From the NCBI GenBank assembly GCA_021787935.1, contig JAJYLC010000011.1:1-38723 (forward strand): a stretch of DNA of 38,723 bases, read 5' to 3'. This document shows positions 11,898 through 21,454 of this stretch, piece by piece (position 1 is the first letter of the stretch; every line of letters starts with the position of its first letter). The notes under the pieces were generated by a model. It ran no database searches and was not told the DNA's origin. It saw only the letters and a list, made by a program, of their open reading frames with translations. The position numbers and the translations under genes are program-made. The DNA comes from Chloroflexota bacterium (GTDB lineage Bacteria > Chloroflexota > Dehalococcoidia > SZUA-161).

Positions 11898-14399
11898 TTA
11901 TGGCTTCGCCTCTGCTGGCACCAAGGATGGACGTTGCATCTCGAAAATTCTGTATGCCAGCAGCTTTACCCTGTCTTGAACAAAGAACAATCCCAGGCAA
12001 TAGCCCCAGACCAACCCTGCATAACCCCAGCCCAGAGGAGTCATGAATAGCCCGTACACTGCAATGAAAGTAGCTGCAATCTGCGTGCCCACCACCGCTA
12101 CTAGAAGAATCGGCGCAGGGCGCACTGACCAGAAGGACCACCTAGTGCGTGCCACGAAAAGTGTAAGATGACCGCCTACGGAGAGGTTAAGATATACCAG
12201 TGTCTGAGTTACATCATGGCTTAAATGGAAGACCCTATCGCCGAGGTAGAAGATACCGAAGGACCGAATCGTCGCATAGACCCCGATTACTGTAGCTACG
12301 CCCAACACCGTGCGCATGTTCCATGCCTCAGGCTTATTTCCGTAACGGACGTTGTCATAGGCAATGGACAATATGGCACCATCGTTGAGTATGGCCAGCA
12401 GGACTATCATGATCGCTGTTACAGGCCGGAAATTGAATATCAATATGGCTACTGTTAGAAACGCCAGCAAGGCAACTGTCTCGGCAACACGATAGATAGC
12501 GTAGTTAGTCATGCGTCTGAAGGTCTTGCGAGCCTCTTTAATGGCATCGATGATTACGGAAAGGCCGGGAAGCAGGAGCACTATGTCGGCTGCTGCTCTG
12601 GCAGCGTCAGTAGCTCCGGAAACAGCAATCCCGGCGTCGGCCTTTTTCAACGCCGGTGCGTCGTTAACACCATCGCCGGTCATGCCCACAATATGTCCTT
12701 TTTGTTGAAGGGCCTCGACGATGTGATATTTATGCTCAGGAAAGACCTGGGCAAAGCCGTTAGCTTTTTCGATGGCATCAGCCAATTGGCTTGCTTCGTG
12801 GGGACTCGCTTCAGAGAAGAGGCTAGCATCCACGATGCTAGTGCCCAGATTCAATTGACGACCAATCTCCTTGGCGATGGCGACTTGGTCTCCTGTAACC
12901 ATTTTCACTTCAATGCCCATCTGCTCAGCAGTATCAATAGTAGCTTTGGAATCTTCCCGCAGAGGGTCATAGAGCGGGATTACGCCCATAAATTGCCACT
13001 GGCCCTGGTCTTCGGCCCTGGCCACTCCCAGAGAGCGAAAGCCGCGTGATGCGAATTCATTTACAGCTTTATCGACTTGAGGCTTGATCTGGTCTGCATT
13101 GGGGTCAAGAGCCAAAATCACCTGAGGAGCACCCTTGGTCACCCTAAAAACATGCTCATTCTTACCCTTCACTGTAGCCTCCGTGCGCTTATGAACCGGA
13201 TCAAACGGCAGGAAATGAACGACCTCAAAAGAACTCAACTGCCGGCCATCCTTTACACCACCAAGCACAGCCAAGTCGATGGGGTCCTGATTCTCAGCTC
13301 GGGAAGCCAGAGCTGCGCTAAAAATCATCTGTTCTCGCTCTACGTTCGGAAGGGTAAAGGGGTCACCCATAGTCAATTTGTTTTGGGTCAGCGTCCCTGT
13401 CTTATCGGAACAAAGTACATCAACCCCGGCTAGCTCCTCAACAGAAGCGAGCCGTGTAACAATAGCCTGCTTCGTCGCCAGGACTCTGGCTCCTAATGCC
13501 ATGGTCACCGATAGCACCGCTGGCATGGCCACGGGGACAGCCGCAATTGTCAAAACCAATGCGAATTGGAGGACAGTCAGCGTCCCCTCTCCTCTGGAAA
13601 CAGTTACCCCAAATATCAGGACCGCCAGAACTACTGCAATGACTATGAGATAGTCAGCAATCCTTATTACAGCCTGCTGGAAGTGGCTGCGCGTCTGGGC
13701 TGTTGCGACGAGTTCAGCAGTTTTGCCATAGTAGGTATTCTGGCCGGTGCCGTAAACAATTGCATCAATTTCTCCCTGCCTGAGAATAGAGCCCGAGTAG
13801 ACACCTTCGCCGGATTTGCGTTCCACAGGCAGGGACTCTCCGGTCAAAGCAGACTGATCGACTTCCACTGGATCTCCGTTTAACAACCTCGCATCTGCAG
13901 GTACAATATCGCCTATACGCAGCCTGATAACATCACCCAGCACCAACTCACGTGCGGGTATGGTTGCCCAAGAGCCGTCGCGCTTTACCCTGGCTTGAAG
14001 TGCCAGCTTCGCCTTGAGCGCTGCAATAGCGTTACCTGCCTGGTATTCTTCGCGGAAGCCCACAACGGCATTCATCACCAACAGAACAAGTATAACGCCG
14101 AGGTCAGGCCAATGACGCAGAACGCCGGAGAGTACCGCTGCAATTATAATCATACCGGGGATAGGCCCCCAGAAATAAGAAAGGAATTTCAGTATGGGAT
14201 TGACTTTTTCCTCAGCAAGCTCGTTATAACCATACTGAGCTAATCTACTCTCAGCCTCGGCCTTACTAAGCCCATTCTCAGTGGAACCCAAATGGCTCAG
14301 CAGTTCAGACATGGGCATGGTCTGCAAAGCCTTAGTCTGGGATGCCCTGGCCTGCCCCTCTGATTGCTTTTCACCTTTTCTCTGCTTAGACTTTCTCAT
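11898..14399 (-). CDS. P-type ATPase, probable plasma-membrane H+-ATPase (P3A)
   Basis: CSDKTGTLTQNKLT phosphorylation motif, TGES, MTGDGVNDAPALKKADAGIAV; 833 aa. Confidence 0.9.
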   Translation of the reverse strand: MRKSKQRKGEKQSEGQARASQTKALQTMPMSELLSHLGSTENGLSKAEAESRLAQYGYNELAEEKVNPILKFLSYFWGPIPGMIIIAAVLSGVLRHWPDLGVILVLLVMNAVVGFREEYQAGNAIAALKAKLALQARVKRDGSWATIPARELVLGDVIRLRIGDIVPADARLLNGDPVEVDQSALTGESLPVERKSGEGVYSGSILRQGEIDAIVYGTGQNTYYGKTAELVATAQTRSHFQQAVIRIADYLIVIAVVLAVLIFGVTVSRGEGTLTVLQFALVLTIAAVPVAMPAVLSVTMALGARVLATKQAIVTRLASVEELAGVDVLCSDKTGTLTQNKLTMGDPFTLPNVEREQMIFSAALASRAENQDPIDLAVLGGVKDGRQLSSFEVVHFLPFDPVHKRTEATVKGKNEHVFRVTKGAPQVILALDPNADQIKPQVDKAVNEFASRGFRSLGVARAEDQGQWQFMGVIPLYDPLREDSKATIDTAEQMGIEVKMVTGDQVAIAKEIGRQLNLGTSIVDASLFSEASPHEASQLADAIEKANGFAQVFPEHKYHIVEALQQKGHIVGMTGDGVNDAPALKKADAGIAVSGATDAARAAADIVLLLPGLSVIIDAIKEARKTFRRMTNYAIYRVAETVALLAFLTVAILIFNFRPVTAIMIVLLAILNDGAILSIAYDNVRYGNKPEAWNMRTVLGVATVIGVYATIRSFGIFYLGDRVFHLSHDVTQTLVYLNLSVGGHLTLFVARTRWSFWSVRPAPILLVAVVGTQIAATFIAVYGLFMTPLGWGYAGLVWGYCLGLFFVQDRVKLLAYRIFEMQRPSLVPAEAKP

Positions 14400-14586
14400 T
14401 TCTCCTCGTAGCTTGGCCGTAGATTTTCAAAATATGCAACCATATGTGCCCGAAATACAACTCTAATAGTAAGCATTGTCTATAAAGAAGTTATAAAATG
14501 AAATCGAAAAAGGTTAAAAAATCATCAAATTTAGGGAATGGGTAATGTAATATCCCTTTACAAATCTGCTGTAAGTTAGCTGGCAC

Positions 14587-15675
14587 TCAGGTAGTGGATA
14601 CCAGCGCAATAAAGTAGACTACCATGAGAACCAGACCCACGGGGACACCTGTTTTTGCCCACTCTTGCATAGTTATTTTCAGCCTTCCTGCTGCCACTAT
14701 GTTCGGGATATTGCCCGGGATAAGCATGCCTCCTGCGATAAGGAGCGCCATGGTGGCACTGATAATTTGAGATAGTGCCATGGTCGGCCCTATCTCAACT
14801 GCTGTCAGAGTGGCGTTATCCAGAACCGCAGAAATCGTGTTGATCCAGTAAAGTCCCCAGGACGAAATCTTGTCCAGGTACCATACCATCAATGGCTTCA
14901 TGCCTTCACCTAATAGTATGAGCGCAGCAATAAAAACATAAACCCAAATAGCTCTCATTAAAGCTCCCCTGATGGTCTCAGAGTACTCCGGGGCCTTCGC
15001 CTTCGCTTTGAAAGATACCTTACGACCGATATACACCGCTCCAAAAATAGCTGTGGCTATGACGCCGGGAATTATATAGATCCCGAATTTCTGTAATGGG
15101 AAAAGAAAACCTGCATGGTATGGTGCGCCAGCCAGCTTATTCACCAGGATGGTAGATAGAGGTTCGCCTAACGGCGTAAGACCAGCTCCCAGTCCCACAG
15201 CGAAACAGGTCACCACGGTTATCTTCACTCTATCGCTCTTCGAGAAAGGCAGTGCTGCTATAACTTCGGCTAAGATACAGGCCGTAACGATGACAGAGAC
15301 AACACTGGAGAAGAGGCCCAGCAATGCAATAAAAAGGAAAATGAAGGCCGGGGGGCCAAGCTTGCCGGCTAGAGATATGATGGCATTAGCAAAAGGCTTG
15401 TTGAAATAGTAAATGAGAAGTCCAAATATAAGCACCACCTGGAAAATGCCTATGGGCAGCGAGCCAATCATCACAGGGGCCTTGAGGGCATCCTTCGCCA
15501 GTTCCCAGCTCCAGAGGCTGGAAACGCTCACGGCAATCATGCCCATAATCAGGAAGAACGGCTCTAAATGTTCTCCTATTCTTTTAACTACGAAAGGCAG
15601 GACTAGCACTATTAATGTTATAGCGACTAATCCGATTGTGATATAGAGGACTGGCTCCTGTGGGATATGATCCAA
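14587..15675 (-). CDS. DUF1646-like membrane transporter (putative Na+/H+ antiporter-like)
   Basis: Polytopic protein with VVTCFAVGLGAGLTPLGEPLSTILVNKL and ISAVLDNATLTAVEIGPTMALSQI. Confidence 0.65.
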   Translation of the reverse strand: MDHIPQEPVLYITIGLVAITLIVLVLPFVVKRIGEHLEPFFLIMGMIAVSVSSLWSWELAKDALKAPVMIGSLPIGIFQVVLIFGLLIYYFNKPFANAIISLAGKLGPPAFIFLFIALLGLFSSVVSVIVTACILAEVIAALPFSKSDRVKITVVTCFAVGLGAGLTPLGEPLSTILVNKLAGAPYHAGFLFPLQKFGIYIIPGVIATAIFGAVYIGRKVSFKAKAKAPEYSETIRGALMRAIWVYVFIAALILLGEGMKPLMVWYLDKISSWGLYWINTISAVLDNATLTAVEIGPTMALSQIISATMALLIAGGMLIPGNIPNIVAAGRLKITMQEWAKTGVPVGLVLMVVYFIALVSTT

Positions 15676-15856
15676 CTCGTGCTCTTCCTCTAGAGTTTAA
15701 AGGGGTAAATATACTGCCGGGCAAAATTATTCCAGCTCATCTACAAACGTTCTTGCGAAGGAAGGAATAGTCTCCGGCCATTTCAGTCACAAATCTATCT
15801 AACTCTTTAGCTAATATGATAGCGGGCAATGTAGCCTAACCATTTGGGAAATAACT

Positions 15857-16324
15857 CTAAGCTCCGCTCTTTTTGGGCTTTACCAGCAGGATTGGCAGTC
15901 CTGACCCTCTCAGTACAAAGTCCGCAACACTGCCAAAGACCAGGCGGCCTAATCCACTGCGTCCATGGGTAGCGATGGCAATGAGGCCCACATTATTCGC
16001 ATCAGCGTAACTCACGATGGCCTCACCAACCTGCAACCCGCGCAGGGTAACACATTCCACATGCAAACCCTTTTGTTGCAGAGGTTGAGCTAAACGCTCC
16101 AGGTAGGCCTTCGTCTCTTGTACCTCGCTCTCTATTTGCTGTGTTACCGCCTCGGTCGTATAGGCGGGCACCGCTGCTGCCGCCATCGGCATAGAGCTGT
16201 GAGCAGTGATAACTCGAAGAAGCACTAGGGTGCTGCCGAAGTGTACAGCTTCCTCGGTGGCGTAGGGCAAAATCTGCTCAGCAAGCTCAGAACCATCCAA
16301 GCATACCAGGATTTTCTCAAACAT
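15857..16324 (-). CDS. Single-domain universal stress protein (UspA family)
   Basis: MFEKILVCLDGSELAEQILPYA...IATHGRSGLGRLVFGSVADFVLRGSGLPILLVK; ATG at 16324 preceded by GGAGG. Confidence 0.9.
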   Translation of the reverse strand: MFEKILVCLDGSELAEQILPYATEEAVHFGSTLVLLRVITAHSSMPMAAAAVPAYTTEAVTQQIESEVQETKAYLERLAQPLQQKGLHVECVTLRGLQVGEAIVSYADANNVGLIAIATHGRSGLGRLVFGSVADFVLRGSGLPILLVKPKKSGA

Positions 16325-16384
16325 TTCAGAAACCTCCCTCACATTTGTAAGAGCTACCAGCAAGAATGAGCAATGCTATCCTAT

Positions 16385-17554
16385 CTAGGACAGATAGATA
16401 ACATCTTCGGAATGGTCAAGAGATATGAACAGGAGCAAATACTCCTTGAGGTGTCGCGTAATCAGAAAATTATGTCTGACATGCTCTCTGCCATTCTCAC
16501 CCAGCCACTTGGCATATTCAGGGTTAGTCAGAATTTGCCTGATGGCAAAAGCTGTACCCTCTATACCATGAGAAAGAAGCCCGGTAGATTTGTTCTTCAC
16601 CTGCAGGGGAATCCCCCCAACTGCCGAGGCGACTACAGGTTTTGCTTTCCAGAGAGCCTCACTCACAGTAAGTCCAAAACCCTCCTTCAGAGATTTTTGC
16701 AGAACCACTGTTGCAGCCCTTTGTAGTGCGTTGATCTCAAGATCGCTGCCAGGCGGTATAAGCAGGATATGAATATCTGGATCGTTGCCCGCTTTTTCCT
16801 TAACTTCTGCCAGAACCGTGTTGGATTCCGGATCATCAGTAGCTGTCCCCCCAGCCAGAACCAAACGGCAGTCTATACTTCTTTTCACCAACTTAAACGC
16901 TGTGATGACGCCAACCGGGTCTTTTAAATAGTCAAAGCGGGATATCTGGACAATCAGTGGTTTGTCATTAGGAACACCGTACTTCGACAAGACATCTTCT
17001 ATCATTTCCTGGGGTAATTCCCGATTTTTGTCGCTCAGCGGGTCAATCGAGGGAGAGATAAGGAACTGCCGTATGGGAAGCGGCCGGGAGAAGGCCGGTG
17101 CGGAAAATACTGATGCATCGTATTGGGTTACCCAGGGCTCCAGAAAGTTCCAAACCGGCTCGATAGGCTGGGAAACGTCTACGTGGCATCTCCAAATCCA
17201 TTTCTTGCCGATTTCCTTTTTCCTCTCGACCAGGGCGATAGGCTGAGGATCGTGAATAAAAAGGATGTCTCCACTCAGGTTTATCTCCTCGATATTCTTC
17301 TGGCTCGTTTCCTTGAAAAGCGAGATCTCTTGAGGCGAGAGCGGCCCTCCCCTTCCGTGCAGGGCATTGTGGATTTTTTTTGTTACCTGAAAAAACTCCT
17401 CATTGCCCTTAATAACGCTCCATCGAGCGTCCACGCCAAGCTGACTGAAAAGCGGCAACATTCTGCTTAAGATCTCGGCCACGCCCCCGCCAGCATAGGT
17501 GGAATTTACATTCTGGATTACCTTGCCAGAAAGTTTACTTGCCAGCAGTCGCAA
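16385..17554 (-). CDS. treT: GT4-family glycosyltransferase, TreT-like trehalose synthase; true start probably a little upstream of the TTG at 17554
   Basis: VIQNVNSTYAGGGVAEILSRMLPLFSQLGVDARWSVIKGNEEFFQVTKKIHNALHG; the in-frame upstream stretch DDYGPIIGKSSIEEL also looks homologous. Confidence 0.75.
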   Translation of the reverse strand: MRLLASKLSGKVIQNVNSTYAGGGVAEILSRMLPLFSQLGVDARWSVIKGNEEFFQVTKKIHNALHGRGGPLSPQEISLFKETSQKNIEEINLSGDILFIHDPQPIALVERKKEIGKKWIWRCHVDVSQPIEPVWNFLEPWVTQYDASVFSAPAFSRPLPIRQFLISPSIDPLSDKNRELPQEMIEDVLSKYGVPNDKPLIVQISRFDYLKDPVGVITAFKLVKRSIDCRLVLAGGTATDDPESNTVLAEVKEKAGNDPDIHILLIPPGSDLEINALQRAATVVLQKSLKEGFGLTVSEALWKAKPVVASAVGGIPLQVKNKSTGLLSHGIEGTAFAIRQILTNPEYAKWLGENGREHVRHNFLITRHLKEYLLLFISLDHSEDVIYLS

Positions 17555-17601
17555 CTCTTCAATGCTGCTTTTGCCAATAATAGGTCCGTAGTCGTCAATC
17601 T

Positions 17602-18969
17602 TTACTTGACGCGTTTTTCTATAAGCTGTATCAGTAACGATCTCAGTCCCTCCAGTGTATAGTTATAAGGGTCAAGCCGCGCAACGTCCTGCGCAAGCTC
17701 CTTCTCGTCAAGACTGCTTTCCAGCCAGGCAGAAAAGTCGTTCTGCCCTTTGCCCAGGCGAAGCCTGGCTTCGAAAATATGGAAATACAGCGAACTCAAA
17801 CTGATTACTTGCAGGGCCTCCAAAAACTCCCGCAGATCGTGGACTATATAGTTTGTAGGCACTATTACACTAATAGACTTTATAAAGTTAAATTCTCTTC
17901 CTTCAGGAGCTTCTCGATGACCATGCAAATGCTGTGCCGCCTGGCCCAGGTCTTCCTCGATTATGCTGACCAGCCTGTCTTTCAAAGCTGCCAAAGAAGT
18001 GAATTCGAAAGTATCAATAGCAGCTAATCTCTCTCCTAAGATATCATCATCCAGAGCGTCACTGACCCATACTGAAAAATCATTTGCCGGCTCAGGGGTA
18101 AGATAATGGTGCTCCTCTATGAAGTTGTGAGTATGATAATATACAACAGAATCCGGGACTGTTTTGAGGATATCCACCAGTTCACGTAGATTACTTGCTT
18201 TTAACCCGGTCAACTCTTTCAGATGCGCCCGTCCAAAAAAATGAAACGGTTCCCTGGCTTGCTTGAGCTGACGCCCGTAGTTGATAACTGTACCCTGAAC
18301 GATTTTTCGATTGGGAATTGAAACGATGCCGCCACCTAGAGCTTCTATATGTGTATTTGCCCAGTCTATTTCCTTGACATAGCCTTCCTCACCTGTCTCC
18401 AGCTTTATGTAATCACCAATTTTGATCCGCCCTCTGGCGTTTAGCTGGAGTCCGGCGAAGAGGTTAGGCAGAGCTTCTCTCAAAGACAAGACAAGTATCA
18501 GAACTGCCAGGGCTATTGCGATAAGTAGCACAGCCGTCGGTGCACCCCAAACATCAAGCAGTCCCAAAACAACTAAGACAAAGACTACAATCCTCACGAT
18601 ATTATTGGAAATAATGATGGCACGCTGAGACGCCTTATATCTGTCACCGTAGTATGCTATGAATCCAGAAGCCACGTTTACTACCGATAAGGCAAGAGAA
18701 ATTATAAATAATGTCCACAAACCATTGATCGCTCTTGTCTTCCAGATGTGGGATAACGTCGATACTTCTACTGCCAACAAAGCGCTAAGTATTATGCACC
18801 ACAGTATCGATGGAACCCTCGTAGCTGCAACTAGTATGTCATCGCCCTTCCATTCGGTCCTCTCGGCCCATCTAAACATTGCTTTATAGGCACGCCTACG
18901 CAGCCACCATGTAACAATTAGGCCGGCCATAAAAGCTATAAGCGGAAAAACCACATCACTCCAGTTCAT
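17602..18969 (-). CDS. MscS-family mechanosensitive channel fused to a C-terminal domain with an internal duplication (possibly DUF5752)
   Basis: MscS core LREALPNLFAGLQLNARGRIKIGDYIKLETGEEGYVKEIDWANTHIEALGGGIVSIPNRKIVQGTVINYGR; C-terminal half carries two NDFSxW units. ATG at 18969 preceded by GGAG. Confidence 0.82.
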   Translation of the reverse strand: MNWSDVVFPLIAFMAGLIVTWWLRRRAYKAMFRWAERTEWKGDDILVAATRVPSILWCIILSALLAVEVSTLSHIWKTRAINGLWTLFIISLALSVVNVASGFIAYYGDRYKASQRAIIISNNIVRIVVFVLVVLGLLDVWGAPTAVLLIAIALAVLILVLSLREALPNLFAGLQLNARGRIKIGDYIKLETGEEGYVKEIDWANTHIEALGGGIVSIPNRKIVQGTVINYGRQLKQAREPFHFFGRAHLKELTGLKASNLRELVDILKTVPDSVVYYHTHNFIEEHHYLTPEPANDFSVWVSDALDDDILGERLAAIDTFEFTSLAALKDRLVSIIEEDLGQAAQHLHGHREAPEGREFNFIKSISVIVPTNYIVHDLREFLEALQVISLSSLYFHIFEARLRLGKGQNDFSAWLESSLDEKELAQDVARLDPYNYTLEGLRSLLIQLIEKRVK

Positions 18970-19080
18970 GCCAATTCTCCGCAAACCAATGCATTTAATA
19001 CTTCCTTAAACATACCTGCAAAAGATGAACTGCCCCTCATCATGTGAGTAAGTTAAATGATACAGAACATTCTGCAATGT

Positions 19081-20556
19081 TCAGCCTCCGATGTCCAACT
19101 TGACTAACTCAGAAATTATATCCGCAGCCCACTTGTAAATATTGTTTTCACTGACCACCTTACGCATTTTCAGCATTCGTCTCTGTCTCTCCTCCTTTGG
19201 CATCTCCAACGCCCTCCTGATAGCCTCCGCGAAATGGTCGGTGGCATACGGGTTCACCAGAATTGCATCTGAGAGTTCTCTAGAAGCGCCAGTGAATGGG
19301 CTGAGAATCAAAACTCCATCTTCGTCGAAGCGACTGGCGACAAATTCCTTGGCCACTAGATTCATGCCATCGTGCAAAGCGCTCACTATGGCGAAATGGG
19401 ACATGCGGCGCAACGCCATCAAAGAAAGCTGGGGCAGGTGCTCATCTATGAAGATTACAGGCTTCCAGTACCGAGCAGCGTGTTTCCAGTTGACCTCTTC
19501 AACCAGGCTTTCTATCTCCTCGTTTACTTTTTTGTAAGCCGGTATGTGGACCCGGCTGGGGACGCCCGCCTGGACGAAAACCATTCTCCCTTTCCATTCG
19601 CTATGCGTCGTAAAAAACCGATCGATAGCCCTTAGCCTGTGAGGTATCCCCTTAGTGTAATCAAAGCGATCCAGGCCCAGTCCTATCAATTCATCACTAA
19701 TTCCCAACTCGCCTTTCAGCCTTTCGATCTCAGCAGCCACTTTTTCGCTCTGCGCTTCCCTGGATATTGTCTCAAAATCTACACTGATGGGGAATGGTCG
19801 CACCATAGTTCTCTTAGCGCCACGAATCACTTCAAATCTATCTCGATCAACCCTCGCCTCGATCGTCTTATCCACGGTATCAAGAAAGTTATGGCAATGA
19901 TACGAAATATGGAAGCCCAGCAGGTCATTGCCCAGCAGCCCGTCCAAAATTTCCTCCTGCCAGGGGCATATACGAAAGGCCTCCGGATTAGGCCAGGGGA
20001 TGTGCCAGAACTGAGCAACCTTTATGCTAGGATTCCCGTCTTTTATCATTCTGGGCAACAACGCAAGGTGATAGTCTTGAACAAAGACAACGGCTTTCCT
20101 GTCCCCTACTTCATCCAGTACATTGTCGGCGAACAGCTTATTTACTTTTCTGTATGTATTCCAGGATGATTCCTCGAATAAAGGCGCGGTATAAGCAATA
20201 TGACAAAGGGGCCACAAGGCCTCATTGGAAAAATGGTTATAGTAGCCATCTTCATCCTCTTTGGTAAGCCAGACTCGCCTCAGGGCATATTGAGGCGCTT
20301 GTGGCGGCACCATTACCTTGTTTCTTTTGTCCACCACGTCTGCGTCCGCATTGCCGCTTCCGTGGGCGATCCAGGTGCCCCCACAGCATTGCATCACAGG
20401 GTCCAGGGCTACCGTAAGGCCGCTGGCCGGCACCTGGCACTGAATTTCCCGCCCAGAGAAAGTATGAATGTATGGCTCTCTGTTTGAAGCCACAATGAAC
20501 AGGTCATCACGCAGTTTCTTTTCAACCAGTTGACGCAGGCTTGCTTTTGTCCACAT
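19081..20556 (-). CDS. otsA: GT20-family glycosyltransferase (trehalose-6-phosphate synthase, OtsA-like)
   Basis: ASNREPYIHTF, VFVQDYHLALLPRMIK, FWHIPWPNPEAFRICPWQEEIL, LGLDRFDYTKGIPHRLRAIDRF, SALHDGMNLVAKEFVASR. Confidence 0.88.
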   Translation of the reverse strand: MWTKASLRQLVEKKLRDDLFIVASNREPYIHTFSGREIQCQVPASGLTVALDPVMQCCGGTWIAHGSGNADADVVDKRNKVMVPPQAPQYALRRVWLTKEDEDGYYNHFSNEALWPLCHIAYTAPLFEESSWNTYRKVNKLFADNVLDEVGDRKAVVFVQDYHLALLPRMIKDGNPSIKVAQFWHIPWPNPEAFRICPWQEEILDGLLGNDLLGFHISYHCHNFLDTVDKTIEARVDRDRFEVIRGAKRTMVRPFPISVDFETISREAQSEKVAAEIERLKGELGISDELIGLGLDRFDYTKGIPHRLRAIDRFFTTHSEWKGRMVFVQAGVPSRVHIPAYKKVNEEIESLVEEVNWKHAARYWKPVIFIDEHLPQLSLMALRRMSHFAIVSALHDGMNLVAKEFVASRFDEDGVLILSPFTGASRELSDAILVNPYATDHFAEAIRRALEMPKEERQRRMLKMRKVVSENNIYKWAADIISELVKLDIGG

Positions 20557-20559
20557 TAC

Positions 20560-20775
20560 CTATTCAGTCCCCTTCTGTTTCACAGCCTCGCGTTGAGCAG
20601 GAATTGGATTGCCAAAGAATACTTTAGCATGCGGCCAGGGGATTTCAATACCTTCTTCATCAAAGGCCTTCTTCACCCTTTTTCGTATTTCTCCCATTAC
20701 ATCCCACTGCCGCATGGGCTTAGTGTCGCCCACAACCTTGAGGTCGATCCCGGAGTCACCCAGATTATCACCCCT
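20560..20775 (-). pseudogene. Truncated C-terminal remnant of a second MscS-family channel
   Basis: GDNLGDSGIDLKVVGDTKPMRQWDVMGEIRKRVKKAFDEEGIEIPWPHAKVFFGNP resembles the MscS C-terminal beta/alpha domain; no pore or TM helices upstream, where the DNA is the TetR gene in another frame. Confidence 0.7.
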
Positions 20776-21454
20776 CGACAACAGATACAATACTTCTAGG
20801 ATTTGAAGCAGCATTCTTGAGATTCGTACCGGTTTTCTGCGTTTTTCCAGCAGGAGGCCGCTCGGCCAGACCGGCCATATATGATTCCCAGAGGCGCTTA
20901 TTTTTATTGGCAAGCGAGAAGCTTGAATTGCTCAGCGCCCATAGAGTAACAGTGGCATGAACCAGAGCAAAGAAGGTAAGGGCGGCTGTACTCGGGTCTA
21001 TATCCTGCCTGATTTGACCGGACTTTACACCGCGAGCCAGGAGTTCCTCGATCGCGTTCAGGTAACGGTTGATTACCTCAAACATCCTCTTGCGCAAGTT
21101 CTTGTCAGCCAGACGCACAATTTCACTGATAACTATCAAAGAAATTCCACGCCTTTGCTCTACGTAGGAAAGGTGGGCCTTGAGCACATTCCCCAGGCTC
21201 TCCAGAGCCCCGGACTTTTCAGCAGCGGCCTTCTCCACCGTATCCAGCAACGTCTTTTCTATGTCTTCAATAAGCAAAAGTATGATATCTTTCTTGCTCG
21301 GGAAATGGCGGTACACGTCTCCTTCGGAAATGCCAACCTCTTTTGCTATCTCGCGGATGGTCAGCACCTGCATGCCCCTCGCGGCTGTTATCTTCCTTGC
21401 CGCACTCACAATCTGTCGCCGCCTTTCCTCGGTCGGTTCTCGTGTTTGAGTCAT
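20768..21454 (-). CDS. TetR-family transcriptional regulator
   Basis: RRRQIVSAARKITAARGMQVLTIREIAKEVGISEGDVYRHFPSKKDIILLLIEDIEKTLL, typical TetR HTH. Confidence 0.9.
   Translation of the reverse strand: MTQTREPTEERRRQIVSAARKITAARGMQVLTIREIAKEVGISEGDVYRHFPSKKDIILLLIEDIEKTLLDTVEKAAAEKSGALESLGNVLKAHLSYVEQRRGISLIVISEIVRLADKNLRKRMFEVINRYLNAIEELLARGVKSGQIRQDIDPSTAALTFFALVHATVTLWALSNSSFSLANKNKRLWESYMAGLAERPPAGKTQKTGTNLKNAASNPRSIVSVVEG

Follow-up and report, generated by a model that had tools for sequence, protein, structure and literature searches.

The MscS-DUF5752 fusion gene

The stretch of DNA analysed here, referred to as the window (38,723 nucleotides), exhibits an ORF (17602..18969) that joins an MscS-type pore to a DUF5752 domain. 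The ORF and all the features described below lie on the same strand (-). The predicted protein is 455 aa long when read from the ATG at 18969 and 460 aa long from the TTG at 18984, and the gene is present as a single copy in its genome. Its N-terminal pore module (18253..18969) consists of predicted transmembrane helices and the MscS beta-domain, without the alpha/beta domain of the MscS cage. Pfam identified the beta-domain (PF00924) at residues 172-237 of the 460-aa form (18274-18471) with an E-value of 5.2e-14. In the pore module the AF2 model exhibits five long helices, and a TM3-type helix leading into the beta-domain was found both in this model and in its Foldseek matches to MscS/YnaI (E-values from 5e-9 to 1e-7). 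PF21088 was left unmatched by the Pfam scan of the fusions. An earlier note on this DNA had proposed an MscS-type channel core, and the PF00924 match bears this out. In the nearest relative the channel has its ancestral start, MHW.AENW; in the window (18960-18997) an apparent 10-bp duplication has shifted this start out of frame, and a new ATG at 18969 restores MNW.

The C-terminal 215 residues correspond to DUF5752 (PF19027; 17617..18252, residues 245-456), matched at an E-value of 1.7e-64 and 217 bits (the cut-off of the family being 23 bits) over model positions 2-208 of 208. The earlier note had tentatively named this family, and correctly. The domain has a homologue in OrfY of Thermoproteus tenax (PDB 4cso), which is also the sole PDB match found by Foldseek for its model (pLDDT 90; TM-score 0.78, E-value = 7e-15). 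The likeness extends over the whole domain, with 28% identity. OrfY is, however, a free protein of 216 aa without a channel part, deposited as 'ORFY PROTEIN, TRANSCRIPTION FACTOR'. As OrfY is the only fold match, no sugar- or nucleotide-binding fold is recognised by Foldseek in the DUF5752 model. A DNA-binding fold was likewise not matched by Foldseek, such a lack of match not amounting to proof, and Pfam identified in the fusion protein neither a cyclic-nucleotide-binding domain nor a helix-turn-helix or other DNA-binding family. The full-length model matches OrfY as well as MscS/YnaI, and the YnaI-MscS chimera 9h2v is matched both by sequence (E-value = 1.1e-10) and by fold (E-value = 5.0e-9). 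This full-length AF2 model is a monomer (pTM 0.51), and the position that it gives DUF5752 with respect to the pore is uncertain. Among the papers searched, none deals with DUF5752 or with OrfY, and a paper on trehalose in S. acidocaldarius makes no mention of OrfY, of an operon or of a hypothetical gene partner.

DUF5752 is made of two related units, unit 1 (17920..18246; motif YYHTH...NDFxxW) and unit 2 (17608..17901; motif YFH...NDFxxW), each a beta strand with helices; AF2 places one long strand before the helices in both. Aligned with each other, the units share 29% identity across 98 residues (BLAST E-value = 2e-12), an alignment scoring 17 s.d. above 5000 shuffles, and a comparison of profile against profile gives an E-value of 2e-20. 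The internal duplication seen by the earlier note is thus upheld by self-alignment, and a chance likeness of the two units is ruled out by the BLAST, shuffling and profile comparisons. The Y/H/NDF/W residues are strongly conserved, forming invariant columns in both units of the alignment.

Recurrence of the fusion and the place of the cage domain

Full-length or near full-length DUF5752 domains were found 43 times in 39 of 393 Dehalococcoidia genomes, and 39 of these 43 hits lie within open frames of 447-518 aa, which puts the fusion in about 10% of the sampled Dehalococcoidia. These 39 fusion-length frames among 393 genomes rule out an assembly artefact or a frameshift fusion, and answer the earlier note's question of whether homologues carry the fusion. 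A search of genome contigs with short peptides yielded, besides MscS-only matches, a single full relative, L017 (L085 is the same contig). Carriage by plasmids or viruses was rejected, as relatives of DUF5752 were absent from the plasmid set and the viral contigs searched.

PF00924 and PF19027 are both present in all the fusions scanned (35/35), and PF21082, the alpha/beta domain closing the MscS cage, is present in none (0/35). Since, in addition, DUF5752 starts directly after the last strand of the beta-domain in the alignment, it occupies the place of the MscS alpha/beta cage domain. The fusion thus has the pore helices and beta-domain in common with MscS/YnaI but exhibits DUF5752 in place of their C-terminal alpha/beta cage. 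An ordinary MscS in the operon of the nearest relative (L017) has retained PF21082. The genome of the window exhibits one further MscS beta-domain and one MscL, and no more.

The trehalose operon

The gene directly downstream (16385..17604) encodes a treT-like GT4 enzyme, identified by PF21269 (E-value = 3.7e-54) and PF00534. The product exhibits the N-terminal domain and the GT4 part of TreT, the closest solved structure being 6zj4 (E-value = 2.7e-118), followed by 2x6q (E-value = 9e-91); its score lies below the NCBIfam equivalog cut-off for Thermococcales. We consider it a putative trehalose synthase (NDP-glucose + glucose -> trehalose). Its annotated start is the TTG at 17554, but the conserved frame continues back to the stop codon of the channel gene; the 47-bp gap given in the earlier note is an artefact of that start. 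Upstream lie otsA, encoding a GT20 trehalose-6-phosphate synthase (19081..20556; E-value = 3.8e-126), and, at the head of the operon, a TetR-family regulator (20768..21454) identified by Pfam and present at the same place in L017. The same-strand neighbours named by the earlier note, OtsA upstream and TreT downstream, are therefore as it described them. After treT, still on the same strand (11898-16363), we find genes for a universal stress protein, a DUF1646 membrane protein and a plasma-membrane-type H+-ATPase, in an order identical to that of L017.

The usual order of the operon is (tetR-mscS2)-otsA-otsB-mscS/DUF5752-treT. For 42 of the 43 DUF5752 hits counted above (full-length or nearly so), treT comes directly downstream on the same strand, the 43rd lying at a contig end. 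The DUF5752 and TreT domains are separated by 104-162 nt, and the commonest spacing between channel gene and treT, in a tally that counts some loci twice, is a 4-nt stop/start overlap (GTGA). In some genomes the channel gene ends in TAA and treT has lost its overlapping GTG start, with the treT frame nonetheless conserved up to the stop (compare 17554-17604 in the window). Within the stretches fetched, otsB accompanies 28 and otsA 25 of 36 fusion loci. At three fusion loci (L023, L058, L076), GlgA, a GH57 branching enzyme and a further GH57 protein replace otsAB and treT is kept; the genome of L058 has a second MscS-DUF5752-treT copy in an otsAB cluster. TreT domains occur in 182 of the 393 genomes, often without DUF5752; a full DUF5752 without treT was never seen where the contig permitted the check. 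In a TreT tree, the DUF5752-adjacent sequences cluster, and TreTs of the same class that lack DUF5752 form a separate, well-supported group. Of the unlabelled rows, three are placed close to or within the DUF5752-adjacent TreTs: L036, which is actually DUF5752-adjacent; L110, at the start of a contig; and L103, which has a long branch.

The window differs from the usual order by two losses. Its nearest relative, L017, whose fusion protein is 85% identical, exhibits otsB at the place matching 19019..19060, and BLASTN finds no counterpart in the window for L017 7206-7974. Another otsB, 63% identical, is found elsewhere in the genome of the window (G000:C5). The second, ordinary mscS, an intact gene of 448 aa in L017, is reduced to a remnant of its C-terminal end (20560..20780; PF21082 E-value = 1.3e-6) that overlaps the end of tetR. 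Two neighbouring genes being missing by comparison with L017, the fusion has thus been retained while otsB and the second mscS were lost.

Stand-alone DUF5752 and conservation

DUF5752 also occurs without a channel. In G019, which belongs to another class of the phylum, a DUF5752 protein of 214 aa is encoded between TPSP and TreT (locus L022); a second stand-alone case was not found in that class. In G574 (locus L144), a 229-aa DUF5752 protein is followed by TreT and a trehalose-phosphatase-like frame (otsB). The survey envisaged by the earlier note, for further fusions and for stand-alone copies beside treT, thus yields both. Pairwise identity averages 63% for DUF5752, 68% for TreT, 65% for OtsA and 51% for OtsB, against 41% for the pore, so DUF5752 is about as conserved as the trehalose enzymes and far more than the pore to which it is attached. 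Correlations of pairwise identities between domains are high for all members of the operon (r 0.66-0.85) and do not single out a DUF5752-TreT contact. Given the stand-alone copies beside the enzymes, the lasting association of DUF5752 would be with the enzymes, the channel being an addition; the identity values agree with this. The earlier note had linked the domain to the trehalose machinery. The association is strongly supported by gene order, with treT next to nearly every hit and stand-alone copies beside TPS/TPP and TreT; binding of DUF5752 to TreT, binding of a sugar and a coupling of turgor to synthesis are steps that we infer.

Comparison with known systems

A similar gene association is described for T. 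tenax (PMC3634074), where an MscS-like channel gene is co-transcribed, in an operon (msc-gt-tpsp), with genes for a TPS/TPP enzyme and for a glycosyltransferase of family GT4, a combination like the one studied here. Channel, GT4 and TPS/TPP functions are also encoded together at our loci, otsB being deleted in the window and retained in relatives. According to that report, GT binds TPSP and is required for (activates) its TPS activity; the physical GT4-TPS/TPP complex is thus proven for T. tenax only. The same source describes GT as PimA-like and distinct from TreT, and MSC as a protein of 197 aa resembling only the transmembrane part of MscS, through which its authors propose that trehalose is released under stress. 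Unlike in T. tenax, DUF5752 is fused to the channel here, and OtsA and OtsB are separate proteins. By this comparison, the arrangement in the window can be regarded as a bacterial analogue of the T. tenax operon, with DUF5752 added to the channel. The fusion suggests in turn that the short T. tenax MSC and OrfY may be a split form of one device.

Proposed role of the fusion

We propose that DUF5752 is a docking or regulatory part of the trehalose-synthesis machinery (TreT, together with OtsA/OtsB) that has become joined to an MscS-type pore and would hold the synthases at the channel mouth. We give this reading a probability of about 0.45. It is suggested by treT as the constant partner, the clustering of the DUF5752-adjacent TreTs in the tree, the stand-alone form beside the enzymes, the enzyme-like conservation of the domain, the replacement of the cage and the T. 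tenax precedent. In Dehalococcoidia, DUF5752 would have been grafted onto the pore at the position of the cage, and in a channel multimer the DUF5752 domains would then form a ring on the cytoplasmic side, keeping the trehalose synthases at the valve opening. At high osmolarity the enzymes would fill the cell with trehalose; upon down-shock the valve would open, trehalose would leave, and the movement of the pore might release the attached synthases or switch them off. The direction might also be the reverse, the state of the enzymes or of the sugar setting the opening threshold of the valve. Physical docking, its stoichiometry, the direction of signalling and the mechanosensitivity of the fusion are all presumed in this scheme. 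The three loci with glycogen genes in place of otsAB speak against docking, although they have treT, and the gene order and translational overlap are compatible with simple co-expression too.

Another reading, somewhat improbable in our opinion, is that DUF5752 has trehalose, trehalose-6-phosphate or a nucleotide sugar as its ligand and thereby sets the opening of the channel, contact with the enzymes being unneeded. Its location directly behind the beta-domain is that expected of a gating module, the Y/H/NDF/W residues are strongly conserved in both units, and there is a precedent in the bCNG channels, a branch of the MscS superfamily gated by cyclic nucleotides, whose MscS-type pore bears a sensor domain (Caldwell 2010, Malcolm 2012, cited in PMC4560390). 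Like the fusion, these channels combine such a pore with a different C-terminal module; theirs is a cyclic-nucleotide-binding domain, of which the fusion has none. The fold search, however, returned OrfY rather than a ligand-binding fold, and the H/NDF/W motif, being present also in small one-unit proteins elsewhere, may simply hold the fold together. Sequence evidence by itself does not separate docking from ligand gating.

We think it unlikely that DUF5752 is a passive substitute for the cage, serving as an assembly scaffold, a molecular sieve or a crowding sensor, with its place in the operon reflecting only co-expression of valve and osmolyte. The exact replacement of PF21082 in the 35 fusions would fit such a role, as would the description of the MscS cage itself as a sensor of crowding (Rowe 2014, cited in PMC4560390), but the stand-alone copies beside TPS/TPP and TreT without a channel would be left unexplained, and DUF5752 exceeds the pore in conservation. 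From the PDB title given to OrfY, one might instead take DUF5752 for a DNA-binding transcription regulator tethered by the channel. This is highly implausible, with no match to a DNA-binding family or fold, a separate TetR at the head of the operon and a permanent fusion to a membrane channel being ill-suited to such a function.

Pursued further, the docking reading would make of the fusion a membrane metabolon, a mechanosensitive valve carrying on its cytoplasmic face the synthases of the solute that it lets out and switching them by membrane tension, with DUF5752/OrfY as the coupling element in bacteria and, in the form of separate proteins, in archaea; we regard this wider picture as speculative and doubtful. 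The fusion bears on how cells match osmolyte synthesis to the opening of osmotic valves, a single polypeptide and a single operon joining the two here. It also provides a functional lead for the DUF5752/OrfY family.

One-unit relatives of DUF5752

Dehalococcoidia also encode proteins of about 100 aa with one unit, homologous to both halves of DUF5752 (E-values of 1e-11 and 5e-13), and the duplication therefore probably arose from such a one-unit protein. The family exhibits the pattern CHDG...NL.EL...H...NDFxxW and was seen at L025 7806-8285 (G000:C45), L086, L088-L092 and L138 6424-6741. At L138 the one-unit gene is directly upstream of a treT from the other TreT group, and the genome of the window encodes a one-unit protein fused to a DUF5679 domain. 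Larger proteins of about 580-600 aa (L093 5650-7419, L129 8306-10075, and similar ones at L007-L010, L013 and L015) also carry, at their C-terminus, one weak unit resembling those of DUF5752; in L093, to which the Pfam scan was confined, this unit is preceded by HAD phosphatase-like and HerA-like ATPase domains.
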